Assembly (NCBI RefSeq): GCF_023091865.1
Contig: NZ_JAHXDI010000001.1
Location: forward strand, 744,001 to 808,000
Direction of reading: 5' to 3'
Source: Chromohalobacter moromii
Lineage (GTDB): Bacteria > Pseudomonadota > Gammaproteobacteria > Pseudomonadales > Halomonadaceae
Length of the DNA: 64,000 nt
Shown here: positions 15,368 to 17,052 of the stretch, in pieces
How positions within the stretch are numbered: the stretch's first letter is position 1
How the letters are laid out: every line of letters starts with the position of its first letter
Translations under genes and position numbers: made by a program
The notes under the pieces: generated by a model
Databases searched by the model: none
Seen by the model: only the letters and a program-made list of their open reading frames with translations
Told to the model about the DNA's origin: nothing

Positions 15368-16390
15368 TCAGGCAACGGCGCTGGCGGTGTCGAGCTCGCG
15401 TACCTTTGCCAGTGCTTCGTCGAAAACCTCGAGCCCGGCGCCGGCGCGGTGGGCGTTTTCCGATAGGTGTCGGCGAAACTGGCGTCCGCCGGGGCAGCCC
15501 TGGAACAGGCCGAGCAGGTGACGAGTGACGTGATTCAGCTTGGCGCCCGCCGTCAGGCGTTCGGCGATGTAGGGACGGAAAGCGCGTGCGGCGGCATGGC
15601 GGCTACGCACTGGCGAAACGCCGCCGTAAATGGCGGCATCCACATCGGCCAGTAACCAGGGATTCTGATACGCCTCTCGCCCGATCATCACGCTATCGAC
15701 GAGATCGAGCTGTGCCCGGCACTCGTCCAGCGTCTTGATACCGCCGTTGATACCGATATGAAGATCGGGGTGCTGCGCCTTGAGACGATGCACGCGTGGG
15801 TAATTGAGCGGCGGCACGTCGCGGTTTTCCTTGGGCGAGAGTCCCTCTAGCCAAGCCTTGCGGGCATGCACGATGAAGACCTCGCAGCCGGCATCGGCGA
15901 CGCGTTCGATGAAGTACGCCAGGTCGGCGTCCTCGTCCTGGTCGTCGATGCCGATACGACACTTGACCGTAACCGGAATCGAGGCCGCCGCCTGCATGGC
16001 GCCGACCGCTGCCGCGACCTTGTCCGGATGCTCCATCAGGCAGGCGCCGATCAGGTTGTTCTGTACCCGATCGCTAGGGCACCCCACGTTCAGGTTGACC
16101 TCATCGTAGCCCCAGGCCTCGGCGATGGCGGCGCATTCCGCCAATGCCGCAGGATCGCTGCCGCCAAGTTGTAGCGCCACCGGATGCTCCACGTCGCTAT
16201 ACCCCAAAAAGCGCTCGCGCGGCGAGCCATGCAGGATCGCCCCGGTCGTGACCATCTCGGTGTACAGCAGCGCTTCACGCGTCAGCGTGCGGGCGAACGC
16301 GCGGTAGTCGCGGGTCGTCCAATCCATCATCGGGGCGACGGAGAACCGGCGGGCCCGCGCTAGCGAGTCTTTCGCTGATTTTTCAATCAT
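15368..16390 (-). CDS. dusA: tRNA-dihydrouridine(20/20a) synthase DusA
   Basis: 340 aa FMN flavoenzyme that reduces uridine in the tRNA D-loop. The barrel start is RFSVAPMMDWTTRDYR, and the catalytic acid is Cys104 in NLNVGCPSDRVQ. The FMN phosphate contacts are in GINGGIKT and VMIGREAYQNPW. Length and the APMMDWT motif identify DusA rather than DusB/C. It converges with the hydrolase gene at 14335 (7-base gap) and is divergent from the small RNA at 16578. Confidence 0.95.
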   Translation of the reverse strand: MIEKSAKDSLARARRFSVAPMMDWTTRDYRAFARTLTREALLYTEMVTTGAILHGSPRERFLGYSDVEHPVALQLGGSDPAALAECAAIAEAWGYDEVNLNVGCPSDRVQNNLIGACLMEHPDKVAAAVGAMQAAASIPVTVKCRIGIDDQDEDADLAYFIERVADAGCEVFIVHARKAWLEGLSPKENRDVPPLNYPRVHRLKAQHPDLHIGINGGIKTLDECRAQLDLVDSVMIGREAYQNPWLLADVDAAIYGGVSPVRSRHAAARAFRPYIAERLTAGAKLNHVTRHLLGLFQGCPGGRQFRRHLSENAHRAGAGLEVFDEALAKVRELDTASAVA

Positions 16391-16577
16391 TGATGGCCTC
16401 CGGTGAAGGGATTGGCTAAGAACGATAGCGGATGCAGTGGCCGCGTATTGTACGTCATACGGCTAGCTCGGCAATATCACTCCGGAGCGGAGTCGAGTTA
16501 GCCTGTATGAGTGGCAATGACGTCTTTGCGGCTTGCTGTACTTCTGGAACGTTAAATGGAGGTTGTTTAATGCAGAT

Positions 16578-16757
16578 TATTTTACTGCTGGGAACCTTCT
16601 GCCACGGTGATGATGTTCGCCAAGGAAGGGCGGAAAGCAAGGAAGCTAGGTATAAAGGACGCCTAGGTAAGCATGGAGGCACGGACAGGACGTTCGTGAT
16701 AACTGCAAGGACATGCAGGTTTGCATAAAAACCCGGCCGGTATTGGTCGGGTTTTTT
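16578..16757 (+). ncRNA. Candidate CsrA/RsmA-titrating small RNA (CsrB/RsmZ/RsmY type)
   Basis: No credible ORF. Nine GGA triplets lie between 16591 and 16711 (at 16591, 16624, 16632, 16641, 16657, 16675, 16683, 16688 and 16709). Several are in loops of clear hairpins: TTCGCC/GGCGGA with loop AAGGAAG (16616-16634); CTAGG/CCTAG with loop containing AAAGGACG (16646-16666); CACGGAC/GTTCGTG with loop AGGAC (16680-16698); CTGCA/TGCAG with hexaloop AGGACA (16703-16718), the classic CsrA target form. A strong intrinsic terminator follows. The 5' end is uncertain; a TTTAAT -10-like box is at 16566-16571 without a good -35, and I see no convincing GacA box. In relatives such RNAs sequester the translational regulator CsrA/RsmA. 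The exact family is not determined. Confidence 0.78.
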
Positions 16758-16758
16758 T
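16731..16758 (+). terminator. Intrinsic terminator of the small RNA
   Basis: Stem CCCGGCC (16732-16738) / GGTCGGG (16745-16751) with loop GGTATT, flanked by an A-run before and seven T residues (16752-16758). The A-run also makes it usable for the leftward small-protein gene only weakly, since that gene's stop codon (16762) lies just beyond it. Confidence 0.92.
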
Positions 16759-16761
16759 GTG

Positions 16762-17052
16762 TCAGGGTGACTGGTTGCGCTGATTTCTGAGCTCGCGTTG
16801 CGAGTCTTCCAAGCGCCGCTGAGAGCGCTTGAGTTGGCGCTCTCGACGCTGGCGCTCGTCGAAACGTTCATCGCGGTGTTCGCTACGGTTCAGCGATTGG
16901 CGACGCTCGATTGTGGTGGCGCGGTCGCTACTGACGTCACGTTGCAGTTGATTGCGCTGTCGACTGTCGTTGAGCGAGTCGCGCTGACCCTCATCGGCCA
17001 GCACCGGCCATGCCAAGGCAAACAGTGTCACCAGCAGAATGGCTTTCCTCAT
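16762..17052 (-). CDS. Small secreted Arg/Gln/Asp-rich protein of unknown function
   Basis: 96 aa from ATG 17050-17052. Residues 1-19 (MRKAILLVTLFALAWPVLA) are a clear signal peptide with an ADE cleavage region. The mature ~77 residues are very hydrophilic, dominated by Arg, Asp, Glu, Gln and Ser, with almost no aromatic or aliphatic core and only one Lys; heptad-like spacing suggests a long helix or coiled coil. An upstream in-frame ATG (17079) would spoil the signal peptide. I recognise no family. It converges on the small RNA terminator. Confidence 0.65.
   Translation of the reverse strand: MRKAILLVTLFALAWPVLADEGQRDSLNDSRQRNQLQRDVSSDRATTIERRQSLNRSEHRDERFDERQRRERQLKRSQRRLEDSQRELRNQRNQSP

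Follow-up and report, generated by a model that had tools for sequence, protein, structure and literature searches.

A predicted CsrA-sponge RNA beside dusA in Chromohalobacter moromii and its likely relatives in Halomonadaceae

A stretch of about 144 nt beside dusA in Chromohalobacter moromii very probably encodes a Csr/Rsm-type RNA that acts as a sponge for CsrA, a functional class that we assign from sequence and predicted structure. It occupies positions 16614–16757 of the + strand in a 64-kb window (the whole stretch of 64,000 nucleotides analysed here), which belongs to contig 1 of the 3.47-Mb genome. The predicted RNA presents four GGA motifs in hairpin loops and two in linkers, reads as a non-coding RNA with an intrinsic terminator, and shares its genome with a CsrA gene (PF02599, E 1.3e-26); selection on the structure, with loop GGA kept, is seen in a wider Halomonadaceae family and gives a mixed picture inside Chromohalobacter. 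The four loop motifs and the two mostly single-stranded motifs would bind CsrA dimers, and the RNA would sequester these dimers away from mRNAs. A sequence-only reading of this DNA had proposed a CsrA/RsmA sponge, an interpretation now supported by the architecture, the conserved loop GGA motifs, a covarying related family and GacA boxes upstream of 40 of 107 related copies.

A predicted RNA gene beside dusA

The features of the locus are as follows.

15368–16390, − strand: dusA, tRNA dihydrouridine synthase, divergent neighbour (PF01207; NCBIfam DusA, 508.9 bits)
16542–16559, + strand: usual GacA-box position of relatives (−72 to −55); no box in the window copy
16568–16579, + strand: palindrome TAATGCAGATTA, occupying the position of TAACCNNGGTTA in relatives (7/10 matches)
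16603–16608, + strand: −10-like hexamer CACGGT, inferred from copy comparison
16614–16757, + strand: predicted CsrA-sponge small RNA, about 144 nt (match to covariance model R1, promoter comparison, fold)
16616–16634, + strand: hairpin A, loop AAGGAAG (fold; pairing in ten Chromohalobacter sequences)
16635–16645, + strand: linker with AAGGA (GGA at 16641, unpaired probability 0.61–0.99)
16646–16666, + strand: hairpin B, loop containing AAAGGAC (fold and alignment)
16680–16698, + strand: hairpin C, CACGGAC-AGGAC-GUUCGUG, the portion common to several genera
16703–16718, + strand: hairpin D, loop AGGACA (fold and alignment)
16729–16758, + strand: intrinsic terminator (stem 16729–16754 and U run)
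16762–17052, − strand: small gene with a signal-peptide-like start (MRKAILLVTLFALAWPVLA), convergent neighbour (open reading frame)

About 0.2 kb separates dusA from the predicted RNA. Its 5′ end at 16614 is placed by the start of the R1 model together with the −10-like hexamer, and is better supported than the end at 16578 given by the sequence-only reading, which falls within the promoter region. The terminator that the reading had placed at the end of the GGA stretch is present; on the other strand, too, its stem is followed by a T run, so that it may also serve the convergent small gene, for which no family match was found in Pfam or NCBIfam. The same reading had seen no coding capacity here. 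The open reading frame list does hold a 98-amino-acid ATG frame (16432–16728, + strand) that overlaps the GGA stretch, but this frame has no Pfam match and is interrupted by gaps of 1 and 8 nt in the alignment of relatives.

Homology to DusA ends after 23–33 residues in three Chromohalobacter genomes (loci L004, L008 and L010). At L008 a Gp49-like gene and a helix-turn-helix gene, together a toxin–antitoxin-like pair, come next, as if an element had been inserted into the start of dusA. A search of a plasmid collection returned no match.

GGA motifs in predicted hairpin loops

Nine GGA motifs start within the 121 nt from 16591 to 16711 (at 16591, 16624, 16632, 16641, 16657, 16675, 16683, 16688 and 16709), the number that the sequence-only reading had counted. 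This is the densest 121-nt stretch of the window on either strand, the single one among 127,758 start positions to hold nine. The minimum-energy fold of 16614–16757 comprises four hairpins with a GGA in each loop, followed by the terminator, in agreement with the earlier claim of at least four loop motifs. The loop motifs at 16624, 16657, 16688 and 16709 are unpaired with a probability of at least 0.84, and the linker motifs at 16641 and 16675 with 0.61–0.99; those at 16632 and 16683 sit paired in stems.

We compared 16614–16757 with 300 dinucleotide shuffles, none of which carried eight GGA motifs (shuffle mean 3.75), placed four of them in hairpin loops (shuffle mean 0.46) or reached an equally low energy. 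Simple base shuffles attained eight motifs in 87 of 2,000 cases (4%), because the stretch is purine-rich, and the loop placement is stronger evidence than the GGA count. The longer stretch 16578–16758 folds at −62.5 kcal/mol (z −3.7; 0 of 200 shuffles equally low). In that longer context hairpin A folds otherwise, and RNAalifold favours other pairs for its region.

Loop motifs conserved in ten Chromohalobacter genomes

Searched at the DNA level, 18 of 151 family genomes gave a match, ten of them Chromohalobacter (own genome included); other genomes of the genus may lack the locus. Among the matches listed, the ten Chromohalobacter sequences are nearly full length at 79–100% identity; in about seven of the eight genomes from other genera the matches are short and lie around hairpin C or the terminator. 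Conservation of loop GGA motifs, one of the checks suggested by the sequence-only reading, holds throughout the ten-sequence Chromohalobacter alignment, in which all four loop motifs (16624, 16657, 16688, 16709) and both linker motifs (16641, 16675) are invariant.

Pairing is likewise maintained, with 97.4% of cells in 35 stem pairs able to pair across the ten sequences (0 of 500 shuffles as high). Hairpin A is paired in 98.3% of cells and shows one U–A to C–G double change; in hairpin B the outer pair is broken in four of the ten sequences and the second pair in two. Covariation, another of the suggested checks, gives mixed results within the genus: the covariation score was equalled by 1 of 500 shuffles, the two pairs changed on both sides were reached by 35 of 500, and the observed number of pair types by 178 of 500. 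Covariation inside the genus is thus suggestive only; the positive result comes from 16 sequences of other genera. One Chromohalobacter genome holds a second copy matching R1 at 70.1 bits (L125, G001:C5:79607-79756), on a contig different from that of its dusA-side copy.

Relatives in other Halomonadaceae genera

A pattern drawn from hairpin C located 34 loci in species genomes, 30 of them in Halomonadaceae. The remaining loci (L022, L023, L046 and L049), which lie outside the family and three of which read as coding, were dropped before counts were made. The pattern loci examined share one design of hairpin GGA, linker GGA and terminator. From 27 collected sequences, the 16 that aligned well were used to build the covariance model R1; none is from Chromohalobacter, five pattern loci of that genus having been excluded from training. 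In these 16 sequences, ten pairs are changed on both sides, in 27 such cells, a result reached in 0 of 500 shuffles.

R1 matches the window at 16614–16757 with 70.8 bits (E 1.5e-16), part of which follows from how the training set was chosen, since 14 of the 16 training sequences had been gathered with the hairpin C pattern; the next match in the window scores 14.5 bits. Across the whole genome this is the one strong match, accompanied by seven weak ones of 11.9–21.9 bits. Of five weak matches examined (L058–L061 and L064), four resemble ordinary gene ends with terminators and were set aside. L061/L165 (C1:972278) is a short stretch that contains AGGA three times, once in the loop of a strong hairpin and once in a terminator loop, and begins with a GacA-box-like palindrome that may be merely a hairpin.

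Family-wide, R1 finds matches in 81 of 151 genomes at E≤0.001 and in 72 of 151, from 9 of 24 genera, at E≤3.2e-9. An order-wide scan gave matches at E≤0.01 in 55 of 244 genomes; outside Halomonadaceae but within the order, the best match scored 47.1 bits and the next 35.8. Scores of about 22–32 bits form an order-wide background, and we therefore set the threshold for counting a copy at about 40 bits. The window copy, at 70.8 bits, stands well above this background. Removing six matches below 39.9 bits and nine repeated sequences from 122 R1 matches left 107 distinct copies, drawn from 83 sources that favour the best R1 matches, with genera g3 and g12 absent. Each copy has 5 to 11 GGA motifs and 1 to 6 GGA hairpin loops. 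Rfam searched at gathering scores over 17 relative loci (131,402 bases) identified tmRNA and tRNA only and no Csr/Rsm family; one relative (L038) scores 23.4 bits against Rfam RsmY. The R1 family appears to be an undescribed group of Halomonadaceae sponge RNAs, of which the RNA in the window would be the dusA-side relative.

The match to the window runs through the 3′ half of the RNA. The 5′ half of the R1 family (hairpins 1 and 2) is a different matter: searched on its own, neither a profile HMM nor a covariance model finds any Chromohalobacter copy, and no homologous 5′ half is recognised in the window copy. Homology is accordingly argued from the 3′ part, from hairpin C and the sequence flanking it, from synteny with dusA and from promoter layout, and because the link is of this kind we class the window RNA as a relative of the family, and as no more than a candidate for full-length R1 membership. 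Synteny is found in Litchfieldella xinjiangensis, whose copy (L048/L078/L124) is separated from dusA by about 0.3 kb; the distance is 0.6 kb in G148 (L090, a run of four consecutive R1 matches) and 0.9 kb in G150 (L094). The Halomonas alkalisoli copy (L026) is about 2.8 kb away from dusA. The suggestion of a lineage-specific RNA is thus only partly upheld, as dusA-side relatives exist in other genera but the Chromohalobacter 5′ half is unrecognisable in them.

The resemblance in hairpin C could instead reflect selection by CsrA on a CsrA-binding RNA of independent origin. The undetectable 5′-half homology fits such an origin, as does the closeness of the shared core ACAGGANGU to the SELEX-derived CsrA site RUACARGGAUGU given in PMC7652899. 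The shared letters are not confined to the loop, however, but take in stem and flanking sequence over about 28–52 nt; the dusA-side position recurs in Litchfieldella xinjiangensis, G148 and G150; and the −10 element lies at the same place in the copies. We therefore regard independent origin as unlikely, and favour common descent of the dusA-side RNA with the R1 family.

R1 relatives can be numerous within one cell. Rescanning four genomes with R1 at a threshold of at least 40 bits gave 18 matches merged to 16 loci in G121 (L135–L153), 14 matches in 13 loci in G113 (L045, L097), 13 matches in G125 (L040, L092) and nine in G014. A GacA box (at least 11/14) precedes 11 of the 16 loci of G121. 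Some copies stand in tandem within the paralogous sets of G121, G113, G125 and G148. Two loci of G121, L141 and L142, are double-length RNAs with 11 and 15 GGA motifs, and each resembles two copies joined with no terminator in between.

Promoter layout and GacA boxes

The hexamer at −11 to −6 relative to the predicted start is CATGGT in seven and CACGGT in three of the ten Chromohalobacter copies; in 22 of the 97 others it is CACTGT, CATTGT or CATGGT. Upstream regions were scored for the GacA box TGTAAG-N6-CTTACA with a threshold of at least 11/14 matches, and expectations for this box and for the palindrome described below were taken from base shuffles of each upstream stretch. Such a box precedes 40 of the 107 copies, against about 0.7 expected; 24 of the 40 lie at −72/−73 and the remainder at −61 to −97. 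By group, boxes were found in 6 of 8 Litchfieldella xinjiangensis copies, 18 of 31 Modicisalibacter-type copies, 11 of 16 g20 copies and 5 of 8 others, and in none of 34 Vreelandella-type copies (four loci assigned by name alone; one upstream region too short to score) or ten Chromohalobacter copies. The best scores at the ten Chromohalobacter dusA copies are 7–8/14, the commonest values in shuffles, which bears out the sequence-only reading that a clear GacA box is absent, and the window RNA is not filed as GacA-activated because it falls short of the threshold. The dusA-side copies L048, L090 and L094 in other genera do carry boxes (12, 13 and 12 of 14), so that loss in Chromohalobacter is the simplest reading. 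In the copies of other genera that have a box, activation probably proceeds through it.

These boxes also bear on what kind of RNA this is. The U-rich tail and the open purine loops are equally compatible with antisense pairing, and some base-pairing RNAs contain GGA and bind CsrA (PMC7652899), so that G/A-rich loops might target mRNAs (for example with Hfq), CsrA not being the main partner. The recurrent loop GGA in 107 copies, the covarying stems and the 40 GacA boxes together make up a Csr-sponge signature, and we consider a base-pairing RNA very improbable. Least credible of all is a chance purine-rich stretch before a bidirectional terminator serving the convergent gene: the terminator does read on both strands and base shuffles can supply eight GGA motifs, but the loop GGA motifs invariant across ten genomes, the loop and energy shuffles and the R1 match leave that reading scarcely any room. 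The preferred reading thus remains a CsrA sponge.

A second upstream element recurs among its relatives. Outside Chromohalobacter, 71 of 96 copies have the palindrome TAACCNNGGTTA at 8/10 or better (4.9 expected), and 50 of these sites lie at −46/−47. Sites of at least 8/10 at −50 to −42 occur in 30 Vreelandella-type copies and in 5 of 10 Chromohalobacter copies. The centre of this site is close to −41 relative to the predicted start, where class II activators usually bind. TAATGCAGRTTA is the sequence in four of the ten Chromohalobacter copies, and the others deviate at one to three further places; the window version, TAATGCAGATTA, matches TAACCNNGGTTA at 7/10, a value common in shuffles, and is by score alone within chance. 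The A+T fraction of −75 to −49 has medians of 0.63 and 0.70 in the two groups that lack a box, against 0.56.

A predicted GacA-box RNA between eno and fdxA

The C. moromii genome retains a gene for GacA (NF007018, 291.6 bits against a cut-off of 280), located beside uvrC. Allowing up to two mismatches, a scan of this genome for GacA boxes found 25 sites, compared with 10 for a reversed control pattern. Among 15 of the 25 that were examined, one locus (L154) has six GGA in the 120 nt after the box, and the others have at most four. Its features, by Pfam assignment of the neighbours, are as follows.

L154:1501-1518 (own genome, C1): GacA box
L154, about 1590–1858 (own genome, C1): second GGA-rich RNA, between eno and fdxA–mutS

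This second RNA contains 13 GGA within 271 nt, a number reached by 1 of 300 dinucleotide shuffles, and has a terminator. Its folding energy is ordinary (z −1.1; 51 of 300 shuffles as low), and an Rfam search left it unnamed. It is kept in ten Chromohalobacter genomes with a GacA box of 12 or 13/14 in each; in other genera its 3′ part has shorter matches, and the order mutS–fdxA–RNA–eno is also present at the one other-genus locus examined (L181). By position and class it appears to be the counterpart of RsmZ. Carrying a GacA box as it does, it is probably the route by which GacA still reaches CsrA.

In Chromohalobacter, then, the dusA copy has no box, the GacA gene is retained and a second GGA-rich RNA at eno–fdxA has the box; expression of the dusA RNA is thus probably under other control. 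The palindrome near −41 would be the best candidate site for such other control, though it is weak in the window copy. These elements can be assembled into a tentative model, which as a whole we judge somewhat improbable. It has the Chromohalobacter dusA sponge uncoupled from GacA and moved under another regulator that binds a TAACCNNGGTTA-type palindrome near −41. The palindrome would be an unrecognised second control site of Halomonadaceae sponges, acting jointly with GacA in Litchfieldella and Modicisalibacter, but independently of it in Chromohalobacter and Vreelandella. The family would form the largest known CsrA-sponge set per cell (16 loci or more).

Discussion

A GacS/GacA system has been described in the halophilic Halomonadaceae, and the dusA locus and its relatives are candidates for their CsrA antagonist. 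Related sponge genes with or without a GacA box, in one to more than a dozen copies, form a natural series; what replaces GacA, and why one cell keeps so many sponges for one protein, therefore become testable questions.

Comparison with named families places the RNA outside RsmY, RsmZ, CsrB and CsrC as Rfam defines them. Over the whole window, no Csr/Rsm family (RsmY, PrrB/RsmZ, CsrB, CsrC) passes the gathering score. At E≤10 over 16391–16800, PrrB/RsmZ, CsrB and CsrC are unnamed, one lower-scoring overlapping match of the same clan being left out. The Rfam check that the sequence-only reading had proposed thus returned a weak RsmY (RF00195) match of 15.3 bits against a gathering score of 57, and membership in that family was rejected.

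CsrA binds GGA presented in hairpin loops (PMC7652899, PMC4005645), and the likeness to Pseudomonas RsmY lies in size class, repeated loop GGA, terminator and this faint model resemblance. The GacA site of Pseudomonas aeruginosa rsmY at −75 (PMC4950607) is close to the −72/−73 of R1 relatives. The window copy differs in lying by dusA, in having no GacA box and in scoring far under the RsmY gathering score. With Pseudomonas RsmZ/PrrB it shares the multi-GGA sponge class. The rsmZ map in Pseudomonas includes fdxA and mutS (PMC4353343); the corresponding place here is taken by the eno–fdxA RNA, whereas the window RNA adjoins dusA, and identification as RsmZ by position was rejected. The remark of the sequence-only reading that the locus is not a known Rsm locus is correct in so far as Pseudomonas rsmZ lies at fdxA and this locus does not.

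In the same bacterial family, a 2020 table (PMC7366521) enters a mimic small RNA of Halomonas anticariensis as 'Unknown'. No Csr RNA of Halomonas or Chromohalobacter was named among the literature matches listed.

Sponges that dispense with GacA activation are already known from RsmW of P. aeruginosa and CsrC of Yersinia pseudotuberculosis, both described as CsrA antagonists without it (PMC4950607), and these are the nearest parallel to the missing box of the window copy. RsmW derives from a 3′ untranslated region (PMC4950607), in contrast to the window RNA with its own predicted promoter. Multiplied sponge genes have their parallel in Azotobacter vinelandii, with nine (RsmZ1–7 and RsmY1–2; PMC7366521), the highest count that we have met in print. 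Against that set, R1 relatives reach up to 16 loci in one genome, and C. moromii holds one strong R1 match.
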